Source: Elusimicrobiota bacterium (GTDB taxonomy: Bacteria; Elusimicrobiota; Elusimicrobia; UBA1565; UBA9628). From it: a stretch of 64,000 nt of DNA. Where the stretch lies: contig DAIDHI010000088.1 of assembly GCA_027452025.1 (NCBI GenBank), positions 1-64,000 of the forward strand, given 5' to 3'. Each line of letters starts with the position of its first letter. The stretch's first letter is position 1. The notes below the pieces were generated by a model. That model saw only the letters and a program-made list of their open reading frames with translations, did not search any database and had not been told where the DNA came from. Both the position numbers and the translations under genes were made by a program. Below are positions 44,439 to 59,547 of this stretch, piece by piece.

Positions 44439-44822
44439 ATGACGGCCGGCAGGAAGATTCTCATCGTCGAGGACGAGGTCGATTTCCGGGAATTGCTGCT
44501 CCACGTCCTCACCGAAAAAGGCTACCGCGTCAGCGCGGCCGGCAACGGCGAGGACGGCCTGAGGCTTTACTCCGAGGGCGCTCCCGACCTCGTCTTGCTC
44601 GACGTCCACCTCCCGGATATGTCCGGCTTCGAGATTTGCCGCAAAATCCGCGCCGAAGGCCCCCGCCCCGAGACGCCCATCCTCATCTGCACGGTGCGCT
44701 CGGAGGTGGCCCCCGTCGCCGAAGGACTCAGTTCCGGTGCCACCGACTACGTCCTCAAGCCCTTCCAAGTCTCCGACCTCCTTGAGAGAATCCAGACCGC
44801 TCTCTCGGGAGCCGTCCAGTAG
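44439..44822 (+). CDS. single-domain (CheY-like) response regulator
   Basis: 127 residues consisting only of a receiver domain. The acidic pocket is in ILIVEDEVDFRE, the phosphorylated Asp in LVLLDVHLPDM, the conserved Thr in ILICTVRSE and the Lys in YVLKPFQ. Without an output domain it must act by binding a partner, as CheY does on the flagellar switch. It opens the operon that ends in MotA and MotB, so direct control of the motor is an attractive reading. Confidence 0.93.
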   Translation: MTAGRKILIVEDEVDFRELLLHVLTEKGYRVSAAGNGEDGLRLYSEGAPDLVLLDVHLPDMSGFEICRKIRAEGPRPETPILICTVRSEVAPVAEGLSSGATDYVLKPFQVSDLLERIQTALSGAVQ

Positions 44823-44826
44823 CCTC

Positions 44827-45522
44827 GTGCCGAAGATCGCCATCTTGGACGACGATCCGGAATGGGGCGCGCTGCATTTGCGCATTCTGAAGGGCAGCGG
44901 CTTCGAGGCCGTGCACTTTCCCACGCCGGGCCGCTTCTTCGACGCCCTCCTCAGGAGCCGGCCGGACCTCCTCCTGCTCGATATGCAGCTTCCGGGAATG
45001 CACGGGCGCGAGGTGATCCGCGTCCTGCGCGCCAACGAGGAGACCAAACGGCTCATCGTCGTCGCCGTCTCGGCGCACGACGTCCAAAGCGAGCATGCCG
45101 TCAAGGCGCTCGACGCGGGCGCCGACGAATACATGGCCAAGCCGGTCGACCCCGAGTTGCTCGTGGCGCGCATCTCCGCGCTCCTGCGGCGCGGCTACGC
45201 GGCGCCGCAGGAGCACCACGAGCTCTTGACGCTGGGACCGTTGACGATCTCGCCGGAGGAGCACGCGGTCAGGCTCAAGGGCCGGGACCTGGACCTGACG
45301 AGGCTGGAATTCGATCTCTTGCTGGCCTTCGCCCGCCAGCCCGAACGGGTGCTCACGAGAAGCCTCGTTCTGGAATCGGTCTGGGGCGGCGACGCGAGCA
45401 TGGGCACGCGCACCGTCGATAAGCACGTGGAGTCGCTGCGCCGCAAGCTCGGAGCCTTCGGCAAGCGCCTGGAGACGGTGATCCGCGTCGGCTACGTTCT
45501 CAAGACGGAGGACCTGAAATGA
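44827..45522 (+). CDS. OmpR/PhoB-family response regulator
   Basis: 231 residues with a GTG start four bases after the previous stop. The receiver domain (IAILDDDPEWGALH; LLLLDMQLPGM; VVAVSAHD; YMAKPVD) is followed by a winged-helix DNA-binding domain from about residue 135 (LTRLEFDLLLAFARQPERVLTRSLVLESVWGG; RTVDKHVESLRRKLG). It probably regulates transcription in response to one of the kinases encoded opposite. Its stop overlaps the MotA start by four bases. Confidence 0.94.
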   Translation: MPKIAILDDDPEWGALHLRILKGSGFEAVHFPTPGRFFDALLRSRPDLLLLDMQLPGMHGREVIRVLRANEETKRLIVVAVSAHDVQSEHAVKALDAGADEYMAKPVDPELLVARISALLRRGYAAPQEHHELLTLGPLTISPEEHAVRLKGRDLDLTRLEFDLLLAFARQPERVLTRSLVLESVWGGDASMGTRTVDKHVESLRRKLGAFGKRLETVIRVGYVLKTEDLK

Positions 45523-46325
45523 ACATCTCGCTATGGATCGGCCTGGTCGCGGCCGCGTTCCTCGTGCGCTGGGGCGTCGCTCGCGCCGGCTATCTCAACG
45601 GTTCGGCCGACGTCGAGGGCATCATAGTCGTGCTCGGCGGCCTGGCCTCGGCCTTGCTCATCAATTGCAGCTTCGGCCAGCTCTTCGCCGCGGCGCGCAG
45701 CTGCGCGAAGCTTTTTCTGCCTTCTTCGCTGCCGGCTCCCGAGGACGCCATCGTCGAGGTCATTCGTCTCGCGCGCAAGGCGCACAAGGAAGGCGGCGTG
45801 CTGTCGCTGCAAGACGACGCCCGGGAGTTCGCGGGCGGCTTCCTCCACCGAGCCATCGTCGCCGCCATCGCCTCCGGCGAAGTCGATGAGACCCGTCGCA
45901 TCGTGGAAGCCGAGATCCGCCAGCTGCGGGTCTCGCGCCAAGAGGAAGCCAACGTCTTTCGCACCGCCGGCACCCTTTCTCCGATGTTCGGCCTGCTCGG
46001 CACGCTTCTCGGCATGGTGAAGGTCCTGGGCTCGATGTCCGATCCCGTGAAAGCGGGTGCGGCCATGGCCATCGCGCTTTCGTCGGCTTTCCTCGGCATC
46101 GCGCTCTCCAACTTCCTGTGCATTCCCCTCGCCGGCCAGATACGCCTGGCGTCGATGAAAGAGACCATGATCTACGAGCTGATGCTCGAGGGCGTGCTCG
46201 ACATCGCTTCGGGCAAGGCGCCCTACGTGGTGGAGCTGCATCTGTCCGCCTATGCCCGCGACCGCCGCGCCCAGATCGAGGCCGGCGGCGCCGCTGCGCC
46301 CGCCGGCGCGGGAGCCCAGGCGTGA
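45519..46325 (+). CDS. motA: MotA-like stator proton-channel subunit
   Basis: 268 residues with the four membrane helices of MotA: residues about 3-20, 32-52, 143-167 and 178-205. The cytoplasmic loop between the second and third carries the family-like segment EDAIVEVIRLARKAHKEGGVLSLQ; helix 3 is TAGTLSPMFGLLGTLLGMVKVL. The C-terminal Ala/Pro/Gly tail is extra. With MotB it forms an ion-driven stator that turns a rotor through contact with FliG; a FliF-FliG fusion is encoded nearby. MotA is clearly nearer than ExbB or TolQ because of the loop and the partner. Confidence 0.88.
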   Translation: MNISLWIGLVAAAFLVRWGVARAGYLNGSADVEGIIVVLGGLASALLINCSFGQLFAAARSCAKLFLPSSLPAPEDAIVEVIRLARKAHKEGGVLSLQDDAREFAGGFLHRAIVAAIASGEVDETRRIVEAEIRQLRVSRQEEANVFRTAGTLSPMFGLLGTLLGMVKVLGSMSDPVKAGAAMAIALSSAFLGIALSNFLCIPLAGQIRLASMKETMIYELMLEGVLDIASGKAPYVVELHLSAYARDRRAQIEAGGAAAPAGAGAQA

Positions 46326-46996
46326 TCCAGCCGTCTCCCAAAAACCGCCGCCGCGGCGCCGGCCGAGCTGTGTGGGAGGAGCGCGAGGACGACCTCGAGT
46401 CCCAGCTCAACCGGAGCGCTCTTTGGGCCGTCTCCTACGGCGACATGATGAGCTATCTGCTCATCTTCTTCATGATGCTTTACGTGGGCTCGAATAGCCG
46501 CAGCCTCACGGCCCAGATGGCGAACAAGGCGATTTCGGAGCGTTTCGGAGGCAAAGGCGACGTCATCCAGGAGCTCTTCTCGAAATACGGCGTGCAGAAG
46601 ATCGCCACGCTCGAGATGACGGATAATCGCATCCGCATCGTCTTCCAGGCGCCGGTCCTCTTCGATCCCGGTTCGGCCAAGCTCAAGCCAAGCTCCTTTC
46701 CGGAGCTTTTCAGTCTCGTCGGAGCGCTCAAGGAGCTGCCCAACAATCTCCAGATCGAGGGCCATACGGACGACCGGCCGCTCGGTCCTGATTCCCCCTT
46801 CAGCTCGAATTGGGAGCTTTCCTCGGCGCGCGCGTTCAGCGTACTGCGCTTTTTGGAGATCAACGGCATTCCGCCCCAGCGTCTGTCGGCGATCGGCTAC
46901 GGGGAATTTCGGCCGCTCAAGCCCAATACCACGCTGACCAACCGCGCCATCAACCGCCGCATCGAGATCAACATCCTCCGCCGCGAGGAGCAATAG
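46322..46996 (+). CDS. motB: MotB-like stator subunit with OmpA-like peptidoglycan-binding domain
   Basis: 224 residues with a GTG start overlapping the MotA stop (GTGA). One membrane helix contains SYGDMMSYLLIFFMMLYV, in which Asp41 is the expected proton-carrying residue. After a linker, the OmpA-C domain (residues about 110-224) has NLQIEGHTDDRPLG, SSARAFSVLRFLEINGI and NRRIEINILR, which bind peptidoglycan. So the stator is wall-anchored as in flagellar motors. The linker includes a plug-like amphipathic stretch (TAQMANKAISERFGG). Confidence 0.9.
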   Translation: MIQPSPKNRRRGAGRAVWEEREDDLESQLNRSALWAVSYGDMMSYLLIFFMMLYVGSNSRSLTAQMANKAISERFGGKGDVIQELFSKYGVQKIATLEMTDNRIRIVFQAPVLFDPGSAKLKPSSFPELFSLVGALKELPNNLQIEGHTDDRPLGPDSPFSSNWELSSARAFSVLRFLEINGIPPQRLSAIGYGEFRPLKPNTTLTNRAINRRIEINILRREEQ

Positions 46997-46999
46997 CGA

Positions 47000-47064
47000 G
47001 GTGCCTGGCTTTAACTTATTTAACTTGTTCGCAGAACAAGTTAAATAAGTTAAAGCCAGGCACC
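47000..47064. repeat. perfect 31-bp inverted repeat with 3-base loop
   Basis: The arms 47000-47030 and 47034-47064 are exact reverse complements around the loop GCA. The stem ends are GC-rich (GGTGCCTGGC) and the inner two-thirds AT-rich (TTTAACTTATTTAACTTG). It lies between convergent motB and the histidine kinase gene, where a two-way terminator would be expected, but there is no U-tract outside the stem. A REP-like mobile palindrome is the alternative. Confidence 0.9.
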
Positions 47065-47085
47065 GTTAACTGTTGATTGGCACCG

Positions 47086-49158
47086 CTAATTCAGCGGCAG
47101 CCGGAAGATGAACCGGCTGCCGCGGCCCTCCTCGGACTCCACCCAAATCCGTCCGCCGTGGAGCTCGACGACCTTCTTGCAGATCGCCAAGCCCAAGCCG
47201 TAGCCCTGCCGCATCTGGCCGCCTTCGAGCTGCTTGAACTTTTCGAACACGCTCTTGAGGGCCATTTTGGGAATGCCCGGCCCCGTGTCTTGGACGGAAA
47301 ACTCCATTTCTCCGTCCCGGGTCCCGATCTCCACCGTGATTTTCCCGCCTTCGGGCGTGAACTTCATGGCGTTGCCGATCAGGTTCATGACGACGCGTTC
47401 GACGAGGCCCGAATCGCAGGAGAGCGCGTGCGGCGCGCTGCCGCGCACGAAGTCCAAGGCGATCTTTCGAGGCTCGGCTTGGATCGTGTAGAGATCGCGC
47501 ATGCTGTCGAGAATCCCTTGGACGTCGACGATCGACTTCTTGAGCTCCATGGTGCCCGACTCGAGCTTCGCCATCTGGAGGATATCCGAGACCAGGTCGC
47601 GCAGGCGGGCCGTGGCCTGCGCGGCGTAGCGCATGTACATGCGCTCCTTCTCGCTGACGGCGGCGGACTTCTGCATCGTCTCGATGAAGGCGCTGATGGC
47701 CGACAGCGGGCTGCGCAGGTCGTGGACGATGGAGTGCAGGAACTCCTCCTTCATCCGTTCCACGTTGCGCTCCATCGTCACGTCGCGCAAAAGCAGCAGG
47801 ATGCCGATGTCGCGCTTTTCGCCGGAGACGGTGACGCCCTGGCAGAGGAAGACGCCGCGGTTGGAGCCGTCGCTGCCCGTCAACTCGACTTCCACGCTGT
47901 CGCTGCGCTTGCGGCGCATGATGAGCGACTGAGTCAGCTCCAGAAGCTGGGGCGAACGGATCACGTCCCGGATGTTGCGGCCGGCGCTGGGCCCGGCCAG
48001 CTCGGGCGCTCCGAGGATCAGGGCCGCCATCGCGTTGGCGTAGACGATTTCTCCCCCGAAGCCGGCCATGATGATGCCGGCCGGGATGTTGTGGACGAGG
48101 GCGGCCACCCGGGCCTTTTCCTCTATGATGCGCTCGACCTGCATGGCTTGATAGTCGCGCACCGTCTTCATCATCTGATTGAACGTGCGCGCCAGGACGC
48201 TCAACTCCCCCCAGCCGACCTCCGGTACCGGCTGCTTGAGATCTCCCTGGCCGGCGCGCCGCGCGCCGGCGATGAGCAGGTTGAGGGGCTTGGTCAGGCG
48301 TCCCGTGATCCAGAACGCCCCCGTGCCGACCAGCAGAGACAAGAGCAGCAGGAAGGCCGCGGCCTGCTCGACGAAGCGCTCGGAGTGCGAATAGGCCTCG
48401 GCCCGAGGCTGCAGGCTGAGGGCCCAGACTCCCAGCGACGGCGCGGCCGAGAACGCTCCCACCATCGTGCCCGAACTGGTGCGTATTCTCTCCAGCCAGC
48501 CTGAGGGGCCGGAAAACGGCGACTTCTTCCACGAGGGCACGGCCCCCGGGCTCATGCCCGGCAGAGGCTGGCCTCCGGCGTCGACGAGCATCAGCCGGCC
48601 GCTCGCGCCGACCTTGAGCTTGTTGATGCGCTGCCACAGCGGGCGCAGCGAGTATTCCACGTAGAGCATGCGGCCGTTGGGAAGGGGATGGGCGATCGGC
48701 AGGATGGGCATCCCTTTGACGAGGCGCGGCCGGCCGAGAGCGATGCGCCCGGTGAGGCGCATCTCCTGAACGGCCGGCTCCCGCGACCTGTCCGCGAACT
48801 CGGGCAGCGGGTAGAGGTTGGGATCGGCCAGGCGCATGACCTCATGGCCGACCGGATCGAGGATCGAGAGGACCAAAAACGAGCTGTGGACGGCCGCGGC
48901 GCGCTGAAGCGTTCGAAAATCCCGCGCGGAGTCCTGCTTCCGATCCCGCTCGAGGTCCTCCACGAACGCCAGAGAGCGGTTCATCTCGGCCACGTAGGAA
49001 TCGACGCTGTCGGAGGTGATGCTCGCCAGCTCCTGATGGAAGCTCCGGGCGTTGTCGCGGACGGCCGCCGTGGAGCTGAAGATCCAGACTCCGAGGACGA
49101 GGACGGGAAAGAGCGCGAAAGCGAGGAGGATGAGGAAGAACCGCGCGAAGAGGTTCAC
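47086..49158 (-). CDS. membrane sensor histidine kinase (sensor-HAMP-PAS-HisKA-HATPase)
   Basis: 690 residues. A first membrane helix (residues about 7-30), a periplasmic sensor of about 235 residues (LILSLDP-like cache fold with HEVMRLADPNLYPLPEF), a second helix near 270-290, a HAMP linker (GRLTKPLNLLIAGARRAGQGD), a PAS domain (LVHNIPAGIIMAGFGGEIVYANAMAALILG) and the kinase core: phospho-acceptor His in SIVHDLRSPLSA, N box NLIGNAMKFTP, DTGPGIP and GLGLAIC. It is the last gene of the FliF-FliG operon and faces the MotAB operon that encodes two response regulators, its likely partners. Confidence 0.92.
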   Translation of the reverse strand: MNLFARFFLILLAFALFPVLVLGVWIFSSTAAVRDNARSFHQELASITSDSVDSYVAEMNRSLAFVEDLERDRKQDSARDFRTLQRAAAVHSSFLVLSILDPVGHEVMRLADPNLYPLPEFADRSREPAVQEMRLTGRIALGRPRLVKGMPILPIAHPLPNGRMLYVEYSLRPLWQRINKLKVGASGRLMLVDAGGQPLPGMSPGAVPSWKKSPFSGPSGWLERIRTSSGTMVGAFSAAPSLGVWALSLQPRAEAYSHSERFVEQAAAFLLLLSLLVGTGAFWITGRLTKPLNLLIAGARRAGQGDLKQPVPEVGWGELSVLARTFNQMMKTVRDYQAMQVERIIEEKARVAALVHNIPAGIIMAGFGGEIVYANAMAALILGAPELAGPSAGRNIRDVIRSPQLLELTQSLIMRRKRSDSVEVELTGSDGSNRGVFLCQGVTVSGEKRDIGILLLLRDVTMERNVERMKEEFLHSIVHDLRSPLSAISAFIETMQKSAAVSEKERMYMRYAAQATARLRDLVSDILQMAKLESGTMELKKSIVDVQGILDSMRDLYTIQAEPRKIALDFVRGSAPHALSCDSGLVERVVMNLIGNAMKFTPEGGKITVEIGTRDGEMEFSVQDTGPGIPKMALKSVFEKFKQLEGGQMRQGYGLGLAICKKVVELHGGRIWVESEEGRGSRFIFRLPLN

Positions 49159-49168
49159 GGAAGGGATT

Positions 49169-51712
49169 CTACGATAAATCCTCGGCGGGCAGCCGCACGG
49201 TCAGGCAGGCTCCGGCGCCGGGGAGGTTGGCGGCTTCGATGTCGCCGCCGCCCCGCCGTAAGAGCTTGCGGGCCAGGGCCAGCCCGAGTCCGAGGCGGCC
49301 CTTCTTTGTCGAGGAGAAAGGCGCGAAAGGCTTTTCCAAGTAGTCCTTCGGCAAGCCCTCGCCGGAGTCGGCGATCGTCAGCAGCACCCGGCCGGACGCC
49401 TCGTCGTAGGCGAGCTTGACGCTCAGCGGCCCTCCGCCGGGCATGGCGTCATAGGCGTTGCGCAAAATCTGGTTGAGGGCGCTGCGCAGCGTTTCGGGAT
49501 GGACCTTGACCGAGGGCAGCTTGGGCGCGAAAGAGCGCTTGACGGCGATCTTGCGCCTCTTGAAGGCCGGACGCCAGGCCGCAAGCAGAGCGTCGACGAG
49601 GACCTCCGCCTTTGCGGGCGCGGTCTTGATCTCTCCCTCGCTCATGAACTCGGCGAGGTTGCGCAGCAGGTCGTTGGCCTCGGCAAGCGCGGCCGTGGTC
49701 AGCCGCGCGAGGGCTTTCGGTCCTTCGGGCAGGGACGCCGCCGAAAGCTGGCGCAAGCGCCCGTAAGCCGCGGCGACCGGATCGCGCAGCCGCGCGACGA
49801 TGTCCTGCCAGTCGGGGGCTTTTTCGGCCTCCGCAGCGCGCGCGGCGGCCGCGGCCCTCTCGGCTTCGGCCTTTTCGGCGGCCCGCGCCACCTCCGCGGC
49901 GGCGGCCTCCGTGGAATCGATGGACGCCTGCAGGCTCGCCAGCGTCTGCTGCAGCTTCTGCTCGATCTCGGCGGCCCGGCGCCTGACCTTGGCCTCCTCG
50001 TCGCGGGCCTGGGAGGCCTGCGCCATGGCGGCTTCGACGCGGGAGCGCATGTCCTCCACGTCGGCCTGCATCTTCGAGACTTCTTCGCGGCGCGCCTCGG
50101 CCAGGCCGAGCGCCTCCGATGCCTGCCGCCGCAGAAGCTGGCCTTCCTGGCGCAACTCCTCTTCTCGCTTCTCTATCTGCGCGATCTGCGCCAGGAGCCG
50201 GGCGATCTCCTCCTCCCGTTCGGCGGCGCGCCCTTCGGCCTCCGCGGTGCGGTTGCGCAGGCGCACTTCCTCCTCGAGAAGGAGCTTCTCGCGCTCCAGC
50301 TGCTTGCGGCGCTCCCCTTCCAGTCCCTCCGCCTGCCGCGCCAAGGCCAAGTGCGCCTGGTCGAGCTGGGCCAGATCGGCCTTGGCGCGCAAGAGGTCCT
50401 TCTCCGCGCGCCGGCAGCGCGCCGCGGCGTCGTCGAAACCTTTGCGGGCGCCGTCGAGCGCCTTTTGGAGGATCTCGTTGTCGTTCTTGAGCCGGGCCGC
50501 CTCCCTGTCGAATAGCGCCTGTTCCTCGACCAGCCGCTTCTCGAGCTGCGCCGTATTTTCGCCCAGGACGGAGAGCTCCTTCTGGCCGCGATCGAAGTAG
50601 GCCAGCAGCTCGGCGTGCTCCCTGCGGGCGGCCTCGAGCGCCTCGGCGCGCGCCGCGGCCTCGCCTTGGGCTTGCTGCAGGAGCGCGGACAGCCTCTGGC
50701 GCTCGCGCTGAGCGTCTTTCCAGCGAGCTTCGTCCTCGACGCGCGCACGGCGTTCGTCGCGCTCGCGCTCCAAGACGGCTATCGCCTCGGCCTGTCGCGC
50801 CGCCTCGCGCTTCAGGGCCTCTTGATCGCGCCTGGCCTGCGCGAGCGCGGCCTCCAGTCGCTCGATCTCAGAGCCGAGGCCTTGGCCGTCCCGGCGGGCG
50901 GCATCGCAGCTCTGGCGCCAATGCTCGGACTGACGGCGCGCCTCCTCAAGCGATCCCTTGAGGAACTCCAGCTCCTTGGAGAGCACGGCGATGCGCCCCT
51001 CGCGCGCGGCGACGAGGTCTTGAGCGGCCTCGAGTGCCTCGGGGGCTCCGGCCGCGGGCGACGCCGCGGCCTCGGCCCGGGCGGCCTTCCAGCGGCGGTC
51101 GAGATCCTCGAGGAGCCGGCGCAGAGTGGGCAGGAGCAGCGAGCGATCGGAGCCGGCGGCTCTGCGCTCGAGCTCCGGAAGCGAAACCGAAGTGATCCAG
51201 CGCCAAATGCGGTCGACCGCCTGGCGCTCGCGCTCGGCGTCGCTTTCTCCGGCGAGCGTTCGCTCCCACTGAGCCGCGACGCCGGCGAGCTTGGCGCGCA
51301 GGGCGGCCAGGCTGCCGTCCGGCAGCGGCGCTCCGGAAGACGTGCGCTCGCGCAGGAGGCGCCAGCCCTCCTGGACGCGCTCGAGCTCCGAGAGCGCCCT
51401 CTCGCGGTCGCCGTCGAGGGCGAGCTGGCGCTCCTCGAGCTCGCGCAAAGCCGTCTCGACGCGCAAGGCTCGGGCCTCGATCTCGTTGCGCTGGCGCAGG
51501 GACGCCGGATCGTCGATCGCGGGCCCTTCGCCGCCCTCGGCCCAGGCGGCCAGCAGATCGCGCAGGGCTTCGAGCGACCGCCGCAATCCGCGCCAGGCCG
51601 CGGCCGGGGCCGCGCGGCCGGGAGCGCCGCGCAGCGAGCGCTTGATGTGGCGCAGATGGGCTTGCGCTTGAAGCAGCTCCTGCCGCGCGTCCTGAAGTCC
51701 CTCTGGCTCCAT
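49169..51712 (-). CDS. giant coiled-coil protein with degenerate histidine-kinase core
   Basis: 847 residues from the ATG at 51712. Residues about 80-630 are nearly unbroken charged coiled coil (Glu/Arg/Ala/Leu/Gln heptads) with no Gly/Pro breaks for long stretches. Residues about 634-690 resemble a HisKA dimerisation helix, but the phospho-acceptor position reads IVARLRDPVAAAYG where active kinases have the pattern SHELRxPL: the His is absent. A good HATPase_c domain follows (N box LNQILRNAYDAMPGGG, DSGEGLP, GLGLALARKLL). It may bind ATP without autophosphorylating, or act on another protein's His. Its position after the FliF-FliG fusion suggests a scaffold or controller of that motor. Confidence 0.85.
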   Translation of the reverse strand: MEPEGLQDARQELLQAQAHLRHIKRSLRGAPGRAAPAAAWRGLRRSLEALRDLLAAWAEGGEGPAIDDPASLRQRNEIEARALRVETALRELEERQLALDGDRERALSELERVQEGWRLLRERTSSGAPLPDGSLAALRAKLAGVAAQWERTLAGESDAERERQAVDRIWRWITSVSLPELERRAAGSDRSLLLPTLRRLLEDLDRRWKAARAEAAASPAAGAPEALEAAQDLVAAREGRIAVLSKELEFLKGSLEEARRQSEHWRQSCDAARRDGQGLGSEIERLEAALAQARRDQEALKREAARQAEAIAVLERERDERRARVEDEARWKDAQRERQRLSALLQQAQGEAAARAEALEAARREHAELLAYFDRGQKELSVLGENTAQLEKRLVEEQALFDREAARLKNDNEILQKALDGARKGFDDAAARCRRAEKDLLRAKADLAQLDQAHLALARQAEGLEGERRKQLEREKLLLEEEVRLRNRTAEAEGRAAEREEEIARLLAQIAQIEKREEELRQEGQLLRRQASEALGLAEARREEVSKMQADVEDMRSRVEAAMAQASQARDEEAKVRRRAAEIEQKLQQTLASLQASIDSTEAAAAEVARAAEKAEAERAAAAARAAEAEKAPDWQDIVARLRDPVAAAYGRLRQLSAASLPEGPKALARLTTAALAEANDLLRNLAEFMSEGEIKTAPAKAEVLVDALLAAWRPAFKRRKIAVKRSFAPKLPSVKVHPETLRSALNQILRNAYDAMPGGGPLSVKLAYDEASGRVLLTIADSGEGLPKDYLEKPFAPFSSTKKGRLGLGLALARKLLRRGGGDIEAANLPGAGACLTVRLPAEDLS

Positions 51713-51717
51713 GGCCG

Positions 51718-53541
51718 TCAGACCAGGTCCGAGCTGCCCGCCTTGGTCAGGGCGATTTCCCCGCGGCCGGCCATCTCGTAAGCCTGGGCCAGGACCTTGC
51801 CGCGAGCTTCGAGCACCTTGGCGCGCGGCTGCGGCGTCTCCATCGCCTCGCGGATCAGGGATTGGGTGCCGGGAAGAAGCTGTTCCAGGATGCGGTCGAC
51901 CATCTCCTGGGGCGCGCCGCGCAGGGCCAGGCCCCAATCCGGGTAGGTCACGGCCATGATCAGGCGGCGCAGGTCCGTGGGCTTGAGCCAGCCGATGTCC
52001 TCGAAGGAGAACAGGTTGCGGCCGATCTCCTGCGCGGCCTGCGGGCTGGCGCTCATCAGGTCGTTGATGAGGGCCTCTCGTTCGCCCAGCGGCAGGCGGC
52101 TGAGGATATCGGTCAGCCGGCCGGCTCCGTAGACGCCGAACTCGACGATGGCCTTGAGGCGGTTCTCGATGATGTTGAGCCGCTCGGGGTCGGCCATCGT
52201 CAGGCCGGCCATGGCCCGGGAAACGGCCATTTGGCGCGCCTGAGGCATGGCCGCGAACATGGTCGTCGCCATCTCCGGGGAAGCCTCGGTGAGATAGCCG
52301 AACAGCACGGCCAGGTCCTGCGGAGACTCGGTGAGCAGGAGCTTTCCCATTTCGGCCGGGGCCTTCTTGGACAGGAAATCGAACCGTTGCCCGAGCGCCG
52401 GCGCAGCCGGCGCTTCCCCGTCCTTGGGCTTATCGGCGGCGCCTTCCTCCGCCGCGACGCCGCCCTCGATCAGGTCGGGGATGCCCTCGCCTTCCAACTG
52501 CCCGATTTCCGGGGTCTGATCGGCCAAAGCCGCCTGCTTCTCGGCTTCCCGTTCGCGCCAGAGGCGGCCGAGCTCGTCGACGAAGCGGCGCGTCAGGCGC
52601 GAGGCCGTCAGATAGAGGGCAAGGGCCAGGAGGATGATGAGCAGCGAGACGGCGGCGACGCGCAGTTCTGTGCGCATGGACTGAGGCTGTTTGAGATATT
52701 GCAGGAAGTCCTGCAGGGTCATCTTCCAGTAGGGCATCAGCGGCGCGCGGACGATGGAGATCTCGTCGCCGCGCGCGGTGTCGATGTGGAAGAGGTCGGG
52801 CAGCACCTTGGCGGCGGCGGCGGCTTTGGCGTCGGGCAGCTTCGAGTCGAGGACGCAGGTGACCTTCAGCCGCTTGATGATGAAGCCGCTGACGCGCAGC
52901 GTCTCCTCCCGGTCTTTCTGAAAGAAGTCGAAGCGGGGCGGCGTCGTGATCGTCTGCTGCGCGGGCGCCGGAGGCGCCGCCGCCGGCTGCTGCGGTGAAG
53001 CGTCTCCCGGCAGGGGCGGCGCCAAGCCGACGTCCTGGATGTAGCCCGGAAGGTCCACGGGGCCGTCCGGCTTTTGCGCGGCAGGCGCAGCGGCTTCCCC
53101 GGGCGGCGCGTTGGCCGAGACAGCGGCGTTGTTGGTCACCGTCGTCGTCTGCCCGGGCAGATAGATGGGCGTCAGGATCTCGGTCTGCGTATGAGTGCGG
53201 CTGCGCTCGCCTTCGACGTTGACGAGCAGCTTCGCTCGTCCCGGGCCGAGCATCGCGGTCAGGAAAGCCTCTCCGGCCTGGGTCAGCTGCTGGGCGACCT
53301 GGGCTTCCTCCGGGGTGGGCACGGCGTAGAGTTGAGTGCTCGGCGGCGCGTCCGGCAGCGCGGGACTCGCGCCTCCGGCGGGAGGCGGAGCCGGCGTCTG
53401 GGCCTGGGCCTGGGACTGGCCCGCGGCGGCGCCTGACGGCGCCGCCCAAAGAGCCTGCGCGGCGCCTAGACAGCACAATGACAACGCCAGCGCCCGCGAA
53501 AGATCGCGCTTCACGGCCAGAGTATAGGCCCGGGCCATCAC
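51718..53541 (-). CDS. FliF-FliG fusion protein (MS-ring plus rotor switch domain)
   Basis: 607 residues counted from the GTG at 53541; the ATG at 53538 is equally possible. After a signal peptide or first helix (about 1-33), residues about 75-285 resemble the C-terminal periplasmic part of FliF: FLTAMLGPGRAKLLVNVEGE is like the ring-building motif, and VTCVLDSKLPDAKAAAAAKVLPDLFHIDTARGDEISIVRAPL matches the end of the FliF domain. A membrane helix (294-313) is followed by a linker and a FliG middle and C-terminal domain (about 390-600): TESPQDLAVLFGYL replaces the usual EHPQ motif, and NLFSFEDIGWLKPTDLRRLIMAV and LALRGAPQEMVDRILEQL match the torque-generating domain. FliF ring domains 1 and 2 are missing. 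Natural fusion in one frame, with no stop or frameshift. Confidence 0.85.
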   Translation of the reverse strand: MMARAYTLAVKRDLSRALALSLCCLGAAQALWAAPSGAAAGQSQAQAQTPAPPPAGGASPALPDAPPSTQLYAVPTPEEAQVAQQLTQAGEAFLTAMLGPGRAKLLVNVEGERSRTHTQTEILTPIYLPGQTTTVTNNAAVSANAPPGEAAAPAAQKPDGPVDLPGYIQDVGLAPPLPGDASPQQPAAAPPAPAQQTITTPPRFDFFQKDREETLRVSGFIIKRLKVTCVLDSKLPDAKAAAAAKVLPDLFHIDTARGDEISIVRAPLMPYWKMTLQDFLQYLKQPQSMRTELRVAAVSLLIILLALALYLTASRLTRRFVDELGRLWREREAEKQAALADQTPEIGQLEGEGIPDLIEGGVAAEEGAADKPKDGEAPAAPALGQRFDFLSKKAPAEMGKLLLTESPQDLAVLFGYLTEASPEMATTMFAAMPQARQMAVSRAMAGLTMADPERLNIIENRLKAIVEFGVYGAGRLTDILSRLPLGEREALINDLMSASPQAAQEIGRNLFSFEDIGWLKPTDLRRLIMAVTYPDWGLALRGAPQEMVDRILEQLLPGTQSLIREAMETPQPRAKVLEARGKVLAQAYEMAGRGEIALTKAGSSDLV

Positions 53542-53544
53542 AGA

Positions 53545-53572
53545 ATTATTGCGGTTTTCCTTAATAAGTCAA
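53545..53572 (-). promoter_or_regulatory. promoter of the FliF-FliG operon
   Basis: Minus-strand TTGACT (53567-53572) and AATAAT (53545-53550) are 16 bases apart; an alternative TAATTC has 18. The promoter lies at the end of the upstream kinase gene and only a few bases before the start codon. Confidence 0.5.
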
Positions 53573-54948
53573 GAGGCGGCGGCGGGCTGCTGCGGGGACG
53601 CGGGGTTGACGGCGGCGGGCCCCCGGGACAGGGGCAGCCGGAAGTAGAAGCGGCTTCCGCGCCCTAGTTCCGACTGCAGCCCCACCGTCCCGCCGTGCAT
53701 CTCGATGATCGACTTGGAGATCGCCAGTCCGAGGCCGACGCCGGTCGCCCGCAGGGGGTTGGCCACGCGCTGGAAAGGGGCGAAGACCCGGCCGATGTCC
53801 TGCGCGGCGATGCCGACGCCGGAGTCGTTGACGGAGCATTCCAGGCAGTCCTCCTTGCGCCGCAGATCCACCTGGATCTTTCCCCCGGCCTTCGTGAACT
53901 TGAGCGCGTTCGAGAGGAAGTTCGTCAGCACGTGCGCGATCAGGTCGGGATCGGCGTTGACCCTCGCAAGCCCCGGCTCGATGTGGCAGCTCAAGGCGAG
54001 GCCGGCGTTTTGGGCGCTGGGCGCGAAGAATTGCGCGGTATCCTGGACGATCTCCGAGACGTCGCAGGAGCGCGGAGAGAAGTCCAGCTTGCCGCGCTCG
54101 ATCTTGGCCATATCGAGCAGGTTGGTCACGAAGTGGCTCAGGCGCCGGGCGTTGTTTTGGACGCGCTCCAAAGCGGCCCGGTCCTGGTCGCTCAAGCGGT
54201 CCGGCGAGGCGAGCAGCTCCTTGACGTAGGCTTCGATGGCGCCCAACGGCGAGCGCAGCTCGTGGGTGACCGAGGCGACGAACGTTTTCTTGAGCTTGTC
54301 GAGCTCCTGGAGGCGCTCCGACATGAGGTTGAATCCCGCTCCGAGCCGGCCGATCTCATCGTAGCCCAGCGGCGGGATTTTCTCGCCGAGCTTCCCCTCC
54401 CCGATGTCGGCCAGCGCTCTCTGGATGATCACGACGCGTCGAGTCAGCGTCCAGCTCAGCGGAAGCGCGATGACGAGGGCGAGGAAGGCCACGACCGCCC
54501 CCGCTCGTCCGACGTCGCGCAGCAGCGATCCGAGCGCCTGACGCTCGAGGTCGCTGATCGCCGCGCGGGAAAAGCCGATCTCCGTTTTGAGAGGGCTGGC
54601 CACGGCCGGCGCAGGGTTCGGCAGGGCCTCCTCGACCAAAACGGCGGAATCGTCCTTGTCCTGATCGCCGACGGTCTCCCACTTGCCGTCGATGAAGGCG
54701 CGGCAGCGCAGCACCTCCTTGTGCTCGCGCCGCAGCGCTTGGAGGTAGTCGAGCAGCATCAGCGGGTCTCGGGCGAGCAGGGATTCGGATTCGAGACGAG
54801 CCACGCTCTGGACGAGGAGCTCGCGCTTGTCACGCTGGTCGGAGCGCAGGCTCGAATACTGCAGCGAGACAAACACCATCCCGGCCGCCAGCGTGGCCGC
54901 GGCGATGGCCGCCGTCAGGATCAGGGCGAGCTTGAGGCGGATGCTCAT
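53569..54948 (-). CDS. membrane sensor histidine kinase with HAMP domain
   Basis: 459 residues. Two membrane helices (about 8-30 and 145-168) enclose a small periplasmic sensor domain of about 110 residues. A HAMP linker (ALADIGEGKLGEKIPPLGYDEIGRL) and the kinase core follow: phospho-acceptor in SVTHELRSPLGAIEAYVK, N box NFLSNALKFTKAGG, DSGVGIA and GVGLGLAISKS. The C-terminus ends in an Ala/Pro tail. It overlaps the upstream PorV-like gene by four bases (ATGA), so it belongs to the outer-membrane-protein operon, and the motor operon starts right behind it. Confidence 0.92.
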   Translation of the reverse strand: MSIRLKLALILTAAIAAATLAAGMVFVSLQYSSLRSDQRDKRELLVQSVARLESESLLARDPLMLLDYLQALRREHKEVLRCRAFIDGKWETVGDQDKDDSAVLVEEALPNPAPAVASPLKTEIGFSRAAISDLERQALGSLLRDVGRAGAVVAFLALVIALPLSWTLTRRVVIIQRALADIGEGKLGEKIPPLGYDEIGRLGAGFNLMSERLQELDKLKKTFVASVTHELRSPLGAIEAYVKELLASPDRLSDQDRAALERVQNNARRLSHFVTNLLDMAKIERGKLDFSPRSCDVSEIVQDTAQFFAPSAQNAGLALSCHIEPGLARVNADPDLIAHVLTNFLSNALKFTKAGGKIQVDLRRKEDCLECSVNDSGVGIAAQDIGRVFAPFQRVANPLRATGVGLGLAISKSIIEMHGGTVGLQSELGRGSRFYFRLPLSRGPAAVNPASPQQPAAAS

Positions 54949-57017
54949 TGCTGGCCGCCCGGGAAGTAGGCGCGGGTGCTGGGGACGCGCTGCTGGATGC
55001 GCTCCAGCGCCTTCTGGGCCTGCTCGTTATTGGGGTCGATCTGCAGGATGCGCATGAACATCGCCATCGCCTGCAGATACTCCCCGCGCGCGTAGTGCTC
55101 GACGCCCTTCTGGTAGAGGTCGGCCACCTCGCGCGGGTCGCTCGCGCTCGCGGCCTGCGCGGCCGCGGGCGCGGCGTAGGGCTGAGGCGCGGCGCCCTGC
55201 TGCGGCGCGGCTTCGTTGAGAAGGGTGGCCTGGATCGAGCCCGGCGCCTCTTGCGCGCCCGGAGCCTGGGCGGCGCCGCCCGACGGGTTCGCCGGCGCGC
55301 CGGCGCCCATCTTTTGGTCGGCCACGCGGATGTAATCCTGCATCGACTGCTGCTCGGCCGTGTTGGTCTCCAAAGGCATGGCTTTCTGCCACATCTCCAC
55401 GGCCTTCTTGAAGTCGCCGGTGACGTAGTAGAGCGAGCCGAGACGCTCGGTGGCCATCAGGTTGCCGGGTTCGAGCTCGTGGATGTCGGCCAGGACGTCG
55501 CGCTCCCGGTCGCGATTGCCGTCCTTGTGGGCCTGGGCCACGCGGGCCTCGAGCCGGTCGAGGAAGCCTTGAGCGCTGTCCGGGGGCATGCGCTCGGCCT
55601 TGAGCTGGGTCATCTGCTCCAGGCGCTGCGTCAGCTTGTCGACGCGGTCGCTGGCCGGGTTGAGGCTCAGCGCGTAGGAGTCGTGCAGCATGGCCGTGCG
55701 ATCATTATTGAAGAGGAAGTTCTTGATGCCGGAGGCGACCTGGACTTCGTATTTCTCCGTCGGCGCGGGCAGGTCGGGATAGAAGTAGGCGGCCGCTTGC
55801 AGGCGCTGGCCCATCTTGATGAGCGAGTCGTCGACCTTCATGTCCTTTGTGATCTCGAGGAACTTGGCCTGCGCCTGCTGGAAGTGGCCCTGTTCGACGA
55901 GCTGGCGCACGGCCGCGAACTTGGGATCGCTCAAGTCGTGCGGCGCGCCGCCGGGCTCGTAGGGATACGGCTGCTGGTTGGAGCGGGCGTCGCGCAGCTT
56001 GCCGAGAAGCTCCCGCGTGATCTCATCTTCGGGAGTCGGGGCGCCGAAGTGGAAGGTGAGCGCGACGCGGTGCGTGCCCGCCGTGCCGGAGATGCCTCCC
56101 AGCGGCATCACAAATCCGTAATCGACCTCGATTTTATTGATGCGGTAGGAAAGGCCGATGGTCATCTGGCGCCACTGCTGGTCGCCGACGCCCAGGGAGC
56201 CCCGCACGCCGAACTGGCCGTAGTCGAGGCTGGGAAAGTAGCGCTCGGCGCCGACGATGAACTGCTTGGAGCGGGTGCCGTCCGGAGCCTCGTCGTAGTG
56301 GACGTCTCCGGTCAGGTCCATCCAAAGGCTCTTGTAGGAGACGCCGCCGTGGATGTTGAAGGGCAGCTGATCGCTGCCGGCAAATCCCACGTTGGGCTGC
56401 ATCAGGTGCTCGACGAAGAGGCCCGCTTGCCAGCGCCTCGGGAAGCGGTACATCAAGCCCAGGTCGGCGTCCGGCACGCTCTTGCTGCGCGTGCCGCTGA
56501 GCACGGGATCGGTGCCCAGGCCGCACTGGCCGTTGAGGCAGGCGCTGCTGGCCTCGGAGCCCGGATCGAAGGAGTGGTTGAGGTATTTGAGGTTGGCGCC
56601 CCAGTAGAGCTTGCTGCCCGAATCCCAGGCGTGCGCCTGGTGCGCGTAGGACAGGTAGACGCTCTGCTCGGCGTAAAGGCTGCTCAGGGCGAAGCGCTGG
56701 AAGGCCACGGCGACGGTGCCCTTGTCGCCGTTTTGGATGGGTTGCGCGTAGGCGAACTGCGAAAGCCCGAGGTCCGAGCCGTCGGAGAGGCCCGTGTAGA
56801 GCTGGGTATAGGAAAGCGACAACTGCGGCCGCTCGAGCTGCGCCAGGCCGGCCGGATTGTAGAACATCGCCCAGCTGTCGTCGGCCAGGCCCGTGACGGC
56901 GTTGCCCATGCCCGGATCCCGGGCGCCGGCGCCGAGGTCGTCGAAGGCGGCGAAGGAGGCCGTCGCCGCGAAGGCGAGGAGCGCCAAGAGCAGGACGGCG
57001 CGCGAGGCTTTGTTCAC
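54945..57017 (-). CDS. PorV/PorQ-type outer-membrane protein with C-terminal TPR repeats
   Basis: 690 residues with a GTG start overlapping the upstream stop. After the signal peptide the N-terminal 350 residues match UPF0164/PorV-like 14-strand barrels: FDDLGAGARDPGMGNAVTGLADDSWAMFYNPAGLAQLE is the family signature, and GGISGTAGTHRVALTFHFG ends the barrel. The remaining 340 residues hold TPR-like helices (LERLEARVAQAHKDGNRDRERDVLADIHELEP...; YQKGVEHYARGEYLQAMAMFMRILQIDPNNEQ) separated by a Pro/Ala/Gln-rich linker. PorV proteins are shuttles or partners in type IX secretion of C-terminal-domain proteins, and such proteins are encoded next to it. Confidence 0.83.
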   Translation of the reverse strand: MNKASRAVLLLALLAFAATASFAAFDDLGAGARDPGMGNAVTGLADDSWAMFYNPAGLAQLERPQLSLSYTQLYTGLSDGSDLGLSQFAYAQPIQNGDKGTVAVAFQRFALSSLYAEQSVYLSYAHQAHAWDSGSKLYWGANLKYLNHSFDPGSEASSACLNGQCGLGTDPVLSGTRSKSVPDADLGLMYRFPRRWQAGLFVEHLMQPNVGFAGSDQLPFNIHGGVSYKSLWMDLTGDVHYDEAPDGTRSKQFIVGAERYFPSLDYGQFGVRGSLGVGDQQWRQMTIGLSYRINKIEVDYGFVMPLGGISGTAGTHRVALTFHFGAPTPEDEITRELLGKLRDARSNQQPYPYEPGGAPHDLSDPKFAAVRQLVEQGHFQQAQAKFLEITKDMKVDDSLIKMGQRLQAAAYFYPDLPAPTEKYEVQVASGIKNFLFNNDRTAMLHDSYALSLNPASDRVDKLTQRLEQMTQLKAERMPPDSAQGFLDRLEARVAQAHKDGNRDRERDVLADIHELEPGNLMATERLGSLYYVTGDFKKAVEMWQKAMPLETNTAEQQSMQDYIRVADQKMGAGAPANPSGGAAQAPGAQEAPGSIQATLLNEAAPQQGAAPQPYAAPAAAQAASASDPREVADLYQKGVEHYARGEYLQAMAMFMRILQIDPNNEQAQKALERIQQRVPSTRAYFPGGQQ

Positions 57018-57406
57018 CGAATCACCACCACGGTGCCCGAGATGGTCTTGCTGCCGGCCGTGATCACGTAGATGTAGACGCCGCCGTGGTCGGCCCCCGA
57101 GCCGTCCCACGTCACCTTCGTCATATCCGGAGAGACGATCATGTCCGCGACCTTCCGGCCCTGGATGTCGTAAATCCTGCCGGAAACCGTCGAGAAGCTG
57201 TCGTTTTCGAGCGTGAAGACGATGTTGCGCTCCGTGCCGTTGGGCGCAAGGAAGCGGTTCGAGACGCTCTGCAGGGCGACGGCCTTGGGCGCGATCCCGC
57301 CCACGAAGCCCCGGGCCAGGCCGGCCAGCCCGAAAAGGGAGGCGAACATCCCCAGCCTCCCGGCCAGCCTCGCGCTCGTCTTCCTATGTTGTCGCAGCCT
57401 TTTCAT
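57014..57406 (-). CDS. short secreted protein consisting of one FlgD-Ig/CHU_C-like sorting domain
   Basis: 130 residues. A basic N-terminus and hydrophobic stretch (GMFASLFGLAGLARGF) precede a single Ig-like domain: FLAPNGTERNIVFTLEN, SGRIYDIQGRKVADM, WDGSGADHGGVYIYVI and a VVVIR terminus. This is the same C-terminal domain found at the end of the 714-residue neighbour but without any cargo. It may be a component of the surface machinery or an assembly substrate. Start codon overlaps the upstream gene's stop by four bases. Confidence 0.8.
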   Translation of the reverse strand: MKRLRQHRKTSARLAGRLGMFASLFGLAGLARGFVGGIAPKAVALQSVSNRFLAPNGTERNIVFTLENDSFSTVSGRIYDIQGRKVADMIVSPDMTKVTWDGSGADHGGVYIYVITAGSKTISGTVVVIR

Positions 57407-59547
57407 TTGATCACCACGATGGTGCCGTTATAGTGCGTGCCGCCGCCCGAAAGCTGATAGACGTAGACGCCTCCCGATACGATCGTGCCGTTGGAGCCGC
57501 GGCCGTCCCACATCAGGCACTGCCCGGGACCGCCCGCGCAGCCGCCGCTTGGGGCGCTCATGTCGGCGATGTAGCGGCCCTGGAGATCGAAGATCTTGCC
57601 GGAGACGCTGGAAAACTGCGGATTGGCGAAATTGAAGACGGCGTTGTCGTTCTTGCCGTCGCCGTTGGGGGTGATGAACTTGTTGCTCAGCCCCGAGGGA
57701 TCGAACGCGAAGCCGCCGGGAACCTGGGCCAAGCGGAGTTGATACTTGCCGAGAAAGGGCGTCTGGACGGAGATGGAGTCGCTGAGAGTCTGGACCTTGC
57801 CGTAGGCCTGGATCCAGCCGTTGCCGTTCCACCAGAACAAGCTCAGGTCTTGGGCCGTGGCGGGCGCCAGCGCCGGCCGCAGGCTGGCGATCTGGACGTT
57901 TCCGCTGGAGTCGATGCTGTAAGTCATGGTCAGATTGGCCGCGCCGGCGAGCCGGGTCGTGGGGTCGAGCGTGACGCCGCCCAGCAGGGCCTCGAAATCG
58001 ACGGACGTGACCACGGGGCTGTTGCTGGAAATATCCTGATACTGGGGCGCGGCGTAGACGTAGAAGTTCGCGAGGGTGCTGGCGGCGTAGGTGGCCGGGA
58101 CATCCATCATGGCGCTCTCAAACACCGGCGTCGTCTCCACGAACACGGACCAGAGGTCGTCGGTCGCCGTGCTGCGCTCGTTGGAGGGCAGCGAGAATCC
58201 CGCCGTGTTGACGGCGAAGACCCGGTAATAGCAGGCCTGCGTCTGGCACGCGGCGACCCAGGTGCTGTTGTCGACCTTGTAAGGGTTGGTGGAGACGGCC
58301 ACGCAGTTCGACGGGCTCGTCGGGTCGCAGCCCGCCGTAAGATCCGTCCAGTCTCCGTCCGGAGCGTCGGGCCAAGTCGAGAGCTGGACGTCGTAGCCCT
58401 CGAGGTCCTGGGCGGGCGGCGTTCCCGTGGACGTGAAGAGGGTGCCGTCGTTGAGCATGGTCACCGCCGACCAGGCAAGAGTATTGCTCGCCGCTCCCGT
58501 GGTCAGGGCGACGTTGACCGGAACATCCGGCACGCGCGTGCAGCCCGCCGTCGTGGCGTAGTTGTAATAGTTGACGTAGGGCGTGGAGGAGACGGCGTTG
58601 CGATACCAGGGAGCCTGGGCGGGAGGCGTCCCGCTGTCCTTGCCGACGATGGCGACGAAGTACTGCGTGCAGGCCGCCAAGCCGCTGAGCTGGAAGGTCT
58701 GGCGCGACCCGCCCGGCAGGGCGTTGCCGATCGAGAAGGACGTCGAGTCGACGGTCTGGAAGTCGGACTGCGTGTTCATCTCGGAGGTGGAATAGACGGC
58801 CACGTAGCTGACCGGCGGGTTGGTGCCGGTGTAGTAGGGCGCCGTCCAAGAAAGGTCGATCTGGCCGACGACCGTCGTCGAGCTGGCCGTCAGGTCGGTG
58901 ATCTCGCTGAGGCCGAGCGTGGCCACGGCGGTGGCGCCCAGCGAGAGGTTGCCGTAGAGGCCGTCGGCTTCCTGGGCCTCGATGGCGAAATAATACGTCA
59001 CGCCGGGCGTCAGGCTCGTCGCCGTCATGGTCTGGAGCGTGCCGGAAATTTGCGGCGCCGGCACGCTGCCCAAGAAGCCTCCCGCGGAGAGCGCGGCGTT
59101 GAAGGCGGTCTGGGAACTCGCCGGCGAGAGGCTCGCCGTGGTGCTGTAGGCGACGACGAAATCCCGCGCGCCCTTCGTATTCGACTCGTAGCCGTCGTTG
59201 CCGGGGGCCGTCCATTGCAGATGGACGCTGCCGACCGTCGTGCCGCTGGAGGCCCAGAAGCCCGTGATCGTGCCCGGAAACTCGTAGATCGGCATCAGGC
59301 CGGCGCGGGCGTCGTAAGCGCTTCCAGAGTCCGTCATCGTGGTTTGGGCCAGCTCCCCGAAGCCGTATTGCTGGGAGTAGCTGGCCGAGGCGACGGTCTG
59401 CCCGCCCATGTCGATGTCGTCGACCACGTTCGAAAACGAGCTGCTCTTGGAACTGATCGCTCGGGCCGGCGCGGCGGCCAGCAGCAACAGGGCCAGGATG
59501 CCCGCCGCCCATCCCACGTGCTTCCCAATAGCGTCCGGCCTGCGCAT
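57403..59547 (-). CDS. secreted multi-FN3 surface protein with FlgD-Ig/CHU_C-like C-terminal domain
   Basis: 714 residues. Signal peptide (GILALLLLAAAPARA), an N-terminal region with SSSFSNVVDDIDMGGQTVASASYSQQYGFGE (a pattern seen at the start of Elusimicrobia- or Ignavibacteria-like surface proteins), at least two fibronectin type III domains (VHLQWTAPGNDGYES...; IDLSWTAPYYTGTNPPVSY), a third less clear one, and a terminal Ig-like domain with NKFITPNGDGKNDNAVFNF, SGKIFDLQGRYIADM, WDGRGSNGTIVSGGVYVYQL and IVVIK. The NGDGxND motif is diagnostic. Such C-terminal domains direct export or surface attachment in T9SS-like systems. Probably a cell-surface adhesin. Confidence 0.85.
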   Translation of the reverse strand: MRRPDAIGKHVGWAAGILALLLLAAAPARAISSKSSSFSNVVDDIDMGGQTVASASYSQQYGFGELAQTTMTDSGSAYDARAGLMPIYEFPGTITGFWASSGTTVGSVHLQWTAPGNDGYESNTKGARDFVVAYSTTASLSPASSQTAFNAALSAGGFLGSVPAPQISGTLQTMTATSLTPGVTYYFAIEAQEADGLYGNLSLGATAVATLGLSEITDLTASSTTVVGQIDLSWTAPYYTGTNPPVSYVAVYSTSEMNTQSDFQTVDSTSFSIGNALPGGSRQTFQLSGLAACTQYFVAIVGKDSGTPPAQAPWYRNAVSSTPYVNYYNYATTAGCTRVPDVPVNVALTTGAASNTLAWSAVTMLNDGTLFTSTGTPPAQDLEGYDVQLSTWPDAPDGDWTDLTAGCDPTSPSNCVAVSTNPYKVDNSTWVAACQTQACYYRVFAVNTAGFSLPSNERSTATDDLWSVFVETTPVFESAMMDVPATYAASTLANFYVYAAPQYQDISSNSPVVTSVDFEALLGGVTLDPTTRLAGAANLTMTYSIDSSGNVQIASLRPALAPATAQDLSLFWWNGNGWIQAYGKVQTLSDSISVQTPFLGKYQLRLAQVPGGFAFDPSGLSNKFITPNGDGKNDNAVFNFANPQFSSVSGKIFDLQGRYIADMSAPSGGCAGGPGQCLMWDGRGSNGTIVSGGVYVYQLSGGGTHYNGTIVVIK

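Follow-up and report, generated by a model that had tools for sequence, protein, structure and literature searches.

Two facing operons around a rotor gene

The DNA analysed, here called the window, is a stretch of 64,000 nt from contig DAIDHI010000088.1 of an Elusimicrobiota bacterium. Two operons that face each other were found in it, with the following genes:

44439-44822 (+): stand-alone CheY-like receiver (Response_reg, 104.6 bits)
44827-45522 (+): OmpR-type response regulator, receiver plus DNA-binding domain (Response_reg, 70 bits; Trans_reg_C, 67 bits)
45519-46325 (+): MotA stator protein of the flagellar (PomA-like) type (MotA_ExbB, 61 bits)
46322-46996 (+): MotB stator protein, with a transmembrane (TM) segment carrying the ion-binding Asp, a plug and an OmpA-like peptidoglycan-binding domain (Pfam MotB_plug and OmpA; MotB/PomB in the PDB)
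47086-49158 (-): membrane histidine kinase with Cache-like, HAMP, PAS, HisKA and HATPase domains (Pfam)
49169-51712 (-): long coiled coil ending in a histidine-kinase ATPase domain, a degenerate kinase (HATPase_c, 68 bits)
51718-53541 (-): FliF-FliG fusion, 607 aa (Pfam, NCBIfam fliG, phmmer against the PDB, AlphaFold plus Foldseek, orthologue alignment)
53569-54948 (-): second full membrane histidine kinase with HAMP, HisKA and HATPase domains, between the barrel gene and fliFG (Pfam)
54945-57017 (-): PorV/PorQ-like outer-membrane barrel with a C-terminal TPR domain (NF033709 PorV_fam, PorP/SprF model, TPR)
57014-57349 (-): small secreted protein of 111 aa, with a signal peptide and a T9SS type A-like sorting domain (TIGR04183)
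57403-59517 (-): secreted fn3 protein of 704 aa with a CHU_C/T9SS type B-like C-terminal domain (fn3, 35 bits)

In the plus-strand operon, a 4-bp gap separates the receiver from the OmpR-type regulator, and 4-bp overlaps join the latter to motA and motA to motB. MotA scored 149 bits with the PomA equivalog model, 131 bits with that for MotP and 21 bits with that for TolQ; it matched PomA structures with 121 bits and has kept the flagellar-type length. The ion-binding Asp of MotB lies in the motif 'YGDMMSYLL'. The minus-strand operon runs from 59517 to 47086 with gaps of at most 53 bp or 4-bp overlaps between genes, and the gene for the coiled-coil protein begins 5 bp past fliFG. No HisKA match was found in this coiled-coil protein, which otherwise gave weak matches of the coiled-coil type only. 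The barrel scored 60 bits with PorV_fam over residues 27-324 (below the cut-off of 90) and 43.6 bits with the PorP/SprF model. The 111-aa protein was the top match to TIGR04183 in the whole genome (29.9 bits, cut-off 23), and the CHU_C domain of the fn3 protein reached 24.3 bits, under the cut-off of 27.

The original prediction had placed in two facing operons a motA/motB pair with the key Asp, a CheY-like receiver, an OmpR-type regulator and one full and one degenerate kinase, all of which were recovered with Pfam. The minus-strand operon, however, proved longer than described, since it extends to 59517 and also holds the second full kinase, the PorV-like barrel/TPR protein and the two sorting-domain proteins. 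Elsewhere in the window, a long protein with collagen-like Gly-X-Y repeats (GATG/GLTG units) and a C-terminal coiled coil is encoded at 61717-63999 (-) and runs off the window edge, and a 662-aa protein judged IspG-like by its sequence only, which exceeds the length usual for this protein in bacteria, is encoded at 4404-6392 (+).

The rotor gene is a fusion of FliF and FliG

The frame at 51718-53541 is a real FliF-FliG fusion. It comprises a signal peptide and linker, a FliF RBM3/beta-collar region (residues ~77-270), one TM helix within residues ~286-341, FliG_M (399-464) and FliG_C (495-598); its start is uncertain, the gene caller preferring 53322 and the orthologues opening with a signal peptide. 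The Pfam scores were 26.5 bits for YscJ_FliF_C and 67.4 bits for FliG_C, and FliG_M (22.9 bits) fell just under its cut-off of 25. The AlphaFold models were of monomers; that of the window fusion had a mean pLDDT of 72 overall, with 174 residues at 90 or above and the FliF and FliG parts confidently predicted. Foldseek matched it to the FliG MC structure 1lkv (E 9e-11) and to the FliF RBM3/collar rings 6sd1, 6sd3 and 7cg7 (E ~5e-5, probability 1.00). A copy of the commonest subtype, class I, was also modelled and had the fold of FliF RBM3/collar plus FliG MC. Alignment with 17 orthologues from the same family showed the fusion architecture to be kept, and some positions are invariant in the FliF part as well as in the FliG part.

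RBM1, RBM2, the first TM helix (TM1) and FliG_N were not found in the window fusion by Pfam or by AlphaFold/Foldseek; what it has of FliF is RBM3/collar and TM2. As the S-ring within the flagellar MS-ring is built from RBM3 and the collar, a ring-forming domain is retained. Profile and structure searches thus agree with the prediction of a FliF-like periplasmic part, one TM helix and the middle and C-terminal FliG domains in a single frame that lacks FliF ring domains 1 and 2.

The motor occurs across the phylum without a flagellum

The genome assembly is a draft of 3.25 Mb in 105 contigs (94% complete). FliG_C was found at three places in it, with MotA beside each. The locus on contig C69 contains, in order, a PorV-TPR barrel, a fusion with a TPR tail, a coiled coil, FlbD (Pfam, 78 bits), MotA, MotB and a lipoprotein-like gene; that on C60 contains a receiver, a fusion, MotA, two MotB and a TPR protein. 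The lack of flagellar genes noted for the window extends to the whole assembly, in which there were no matches to FlhA (the type III export gate), to FliMN_C (the C-ring switch proteins FliM/FliN) or to Flg_bb_rod (rod/hook axial proteins). An ordinary flagellar rotor, served by a flagellar gene set elsewhere in a genome with no second fliF/fliG, is thereby ruled out.

The survey was then widened to 295 Elusimicrobiota genomes. FliG_C was present in 120, many of them with two to eight copies. FlhA was found in three genomes (G032, G216 and G246), FliMN_C exceeded its cut-off only in the same three, and rod proteins were present in G032, G216 and G100. When G032 and G216 are set aside, the remaining 118 genomes with FliG_C are all free of FlhA, FliMN_C and rod markers. 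One of them, G292, is a complete chromosome in a single contig (CP096137.1, 3,802,950 bp), with the fusion and no flagellar markers. An assembly gap is therefore unlikely to be the cause of the missing genes. The flagellar cluster of genome G216 includes a canonical fliF (495 aa) and a canonical fliG (320 aa), and a 640-aa fusion is encoded elsewhere in this genome. This coexistence, together with the phylum-wide occurrence of fusions without flagella, indicates that the fusion cannot simply be equated with the flagellar rotor. A published comparison found no flagellar genes in Elusimicrobia (PMC7031533). In G100, the rod-type signal is one domain match (C31:2499-2591, locus L085), from a stray gene or contamination; neither FlhA nor FliG_C was among the matches listed for this genome.

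A scan with two peptide patterns derived from a five-sequence alignment, specific to class I, returned 63 loci, none of them named for another phylum; given this specificity, fusions may also be more widespread. In the tree, fusions of the window type formed a family-specific group (18 rows, support 99/94) and class I broadly tracked the families. The three flagellar FliG proteins formed one group, whose placement is unsure owing to long branches. Fusions L135, L136 and L140 (genomes G122, G078 and G004) are a separate type that grouped with flagellar FliG; the L136 fusion also matches FliG_N, and in these three loci two uncharacterised genes of ~360-460 aa precede motA/motB.

Motor residues and selection on the fusions

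Of the FliM-binding EHPQ motif of Escherichia coli FliG, mainly the E and the P are kept, and in the fusions the motif is mostly lost. Arg281 (E. coli numbering) is replaced in most fusions by Gly, and also by Asn, Ala or Glu, and Asp289 varies, which indicates a torque interface unlike that of E. coli. Position 288 is acidic (Asp/Glu) in most classes and Gln in some, and one small clade (L135, L136 and L140) has kept both Arg281 and Asp288. The dN/dS ratio was 0.05-0.33 in every pair of fusions with intact frames; the value of 0.60 for the window fusion versus L093 was set aside, the L093 gene looking frameshifted. Purifying selection of this kind argues against the fusions being relics.

Barrels and sorting-domain proteins adjoin the rotor

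The neighbours of 118 distinct fusion genes, 114 of which have an upstream gene (some contigs end early), were examined with barrel and sorting-domain profiles built by iteration in this analysis. A PorV-like barrel was encoded on the same strand within two genes upstream in 97 of the 114 loci, as opposed to 2 of 417 background genes lying farther away, and a sorting-domain protein lay beyond the barrel in 65 of 90 loci (background, 4/417). MotA was found within seven genes of the fusion in 86/118 loci. The barrels of C69 (100.5 bits) and L113 (112.5 bits) exceed the PorV_fam cut-off of 90. One relative has a barrel-TPR protein with LysM at its end, in keeping with a tail that lies in the periplasm.

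In class I loci the upstream protein frequently has 2,000-2,700 aa, with C-terminal domains that score under the curated cut-offs. An identification of this giant neighbour as SprA was rejected, since the protein is secreted and carries a FlgD_ig/T9SS-like domain at its C terminus. No kinase gene adjoins the motor in class I loci, which nevertheless retain the giant sorting-domain protein, the barrel and the stator, with FlbD beside motAB; two-component genes accompany the window subtype and some others. In seven class I loci (L107, L109, L110, L111, L122, L124 and L125) the fusion is directly followed by a gene for a protein of 1,550-2,100 aa; those of L107 and L109 are cytoplasmic-looking coiled coils with TPR-like repeats at the end. 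These long proteins might be a scaffold or a track.

Other T9SS parts were sought in the genome and the phylum. Pfam SprA_N had suggested that SprA was absent from the genome, a result overturned by a profile built from relatives: a SprA/Sov homologue of 1,941 aa is encoded on contig C45, not adjacent to a motor (TIGR04189, E 1e-47, 162 bits, cut-off 200). SprA_N matches were also obtained in members of the phylum without FliG_C, in which T9SS-like export would thus need no such motor. The TIGR04183 sorting domain exceeded its cut-off at five places in the genome, the best being that in the window operon. GldM (GldM_1st) was not detected above cut-off in any of the 295 genomes.

A rotor that may act on surface proteins

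These results support the core of the original prediction, a non-flagellar ion-driven rotary motor. Probably, this rotor-stator unit powers the export and/or gliding-like movement of surface proteins held by PorV-type barrels; rotation is deduced from homology, and the thing driven from gene order. The fusion would assemble into a ring in the inner membrane by way of its FliF RBM3/collar region, with FliG_M and FliG_C predicted to hang beneath. Ion flow through MotAB pushes FliG_C, and here MotAB, anchored to peptidoglycan by MotB, would turn the ring in the same manner through a predicted contact. The periplasmic collar may be coupled, probably by TPR domains, to the PorV-type barrel in place of a rod and hook, and the barrel would carry the sorting-domain surface proteins. 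The torque might then export and/or move them, in the way that GldLM of Bacteroidota powers gliding and the T9SS. In the window copy, the kinases, the CheY-like receiver and the OmpR-type regulator may control motor state or expression; that they switch the motor, as first proposed, is plausible. Among the uses initially suggested (gliding, surface-filament movement, secretion or envelope work), surface-protein movement or T9SS-like secretion is favoured, since PorV-like barrels and sorting-domain proteins adjoin the rotor.

A more specific proposal, a good possibility that we advance tentatively, is that in Elusimicrobiota a FliF-FliG/MotAB rotor of flagellar type stands in mechanically for the GldLM/GldKN of Bacteroidota and moves giant PorV-held adhesins with sorting domains, giving gliding. 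If true, a third type would join the gliding motors; it would be kept in several paralogous versions across the phylum and, as far as the searched literature shows, would be the first flagellar rotor to be used elsewhere than in a flagellum.

Alternatively, the motor might be a secretion engine that replaces GldLM, supplying the SprA-like translocon with energy and using PorV to pull sorting-domain proteins off it, with no cell movement. The genome does encode a SprA homologue, PorV-family barrels and sorting-domain proteins, the barrel and sorting-domain genes adjoin the rotor, and no GldM was detected above cut-off in the phylum. However, SprA lies away from the motor, FliG-free members also have SprA-like proteins, and each of the three motor copies of this genome has its own barrel or TPR protein, which suggests dedicated cargo rather than one general engine. 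We thus regard this alternative as rather unlikely. A mechanosensory or envelope-maintenance device, in which torque serves sensing, rotor load or surface contact is perceived by the kinases and the OmpR-type regulator responds, would suit window-type loci, where a receiver, this regulator and membrane kinases occur together with the motor, but it is improbable given that the commonest (class I) loci lack adjacent kinases yet keep the giant sorting-domain protein, barrel and stator. Finally, that the motor is left over from a flagellum since lost, and persists by chance or in some minor function, might be suspected from the full flagella remaining in a few relatives and from FlbD beside motAB in class I loci, but is very improbable, being largely refuted by the selection on the fusions, their conserved operon with new partners in many families, their two to eight copies in many genomes and the presence of flagellum and fusion together in G216.

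Comparison with known rotary and gliding systems

The motor of surface-protein movement or export favoured here shares with the flagellar motor the FliF RBM3/collar, the second FliF TM helix, FliG_M, FliG_C, a PomA-type MotA, a MotB with plug and peptidoglycan-binding domain and, in class I loci, FlbD. It differs in that FliF and FliG are one protein, in that RBM1, RBM2, TM1, FliG_N, FliM/FliN, export gate, rod and hook are missing, in the mostly lost FliM-binding motif and the replaced Arg281, and in operons that include PorV-type barrels and sorting-domain proteins. According to one review, the rotary motors known to be driven by protons are the Fo ATP synthase, the flagellar motor and the T9SS (PMC9127263). 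Gliding motors were reviewed in 2026 with no mention of FliG or of Elusimicrobiota (PMC13104615). No account of FliG rotors outside flagella, or of FliF-FliG rotors in Elusimicrobiota, was found in the open-access literature searched, although an earlier description elsewhere is possible. A family of rotors found throughout the phylum with no export gate, C-ring or filament would demonstrate that the torque unit is separable from the flagellum, would bear on how flagella evolved or were dismantled, and would provide this nearly uncultured phylum, described as having no flagellar genes (PMC7031533), with a mechanism of motility or secretion that can be tested.

With the T9SS and Bacteroidota gliding (GldKLMN, SprA, PorV, SprB-SprF; PMC12635249) the system shares a SprA homologue, PorV/PorP-like barrels and sorting-domain surface proteins; it differs in having no GldM above cut-off, a FliG rotor with MotAB as its motor, and a TPR tail on the barrel (with LysM in one relative). 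In Bacteroidota, the barrel SprF holds the adhesin SprB, a type B substrate, and a moving track powered by the T9SS motors propels it (PMC12635249). The class I giant sorting-domain proteins resemble this adhesin-carrier pair, and a giant protein and a barrel beside the motor would, by analogy, follow the SprB-SprF logic with a different motor. Like AglRQS-Glt of Myxococcus (PMC13104615), the Elusimicrobiota system has an ion-driven MotAB-like unit, near which TPR proteins and a long coiled-coil partner are encoded; unlike Agl, which has no FliF/FliG rotor, its MotA is of the flagellar type, not TolQ-like, and lies beside a FliG rotor. Since the defining components of a flagellum are missing and GldM is not detectable, the system is filed under neither the flagellum nor the T9SS: its torque unit is like that of the flagellum, and its partners resemble those of the T9SS.
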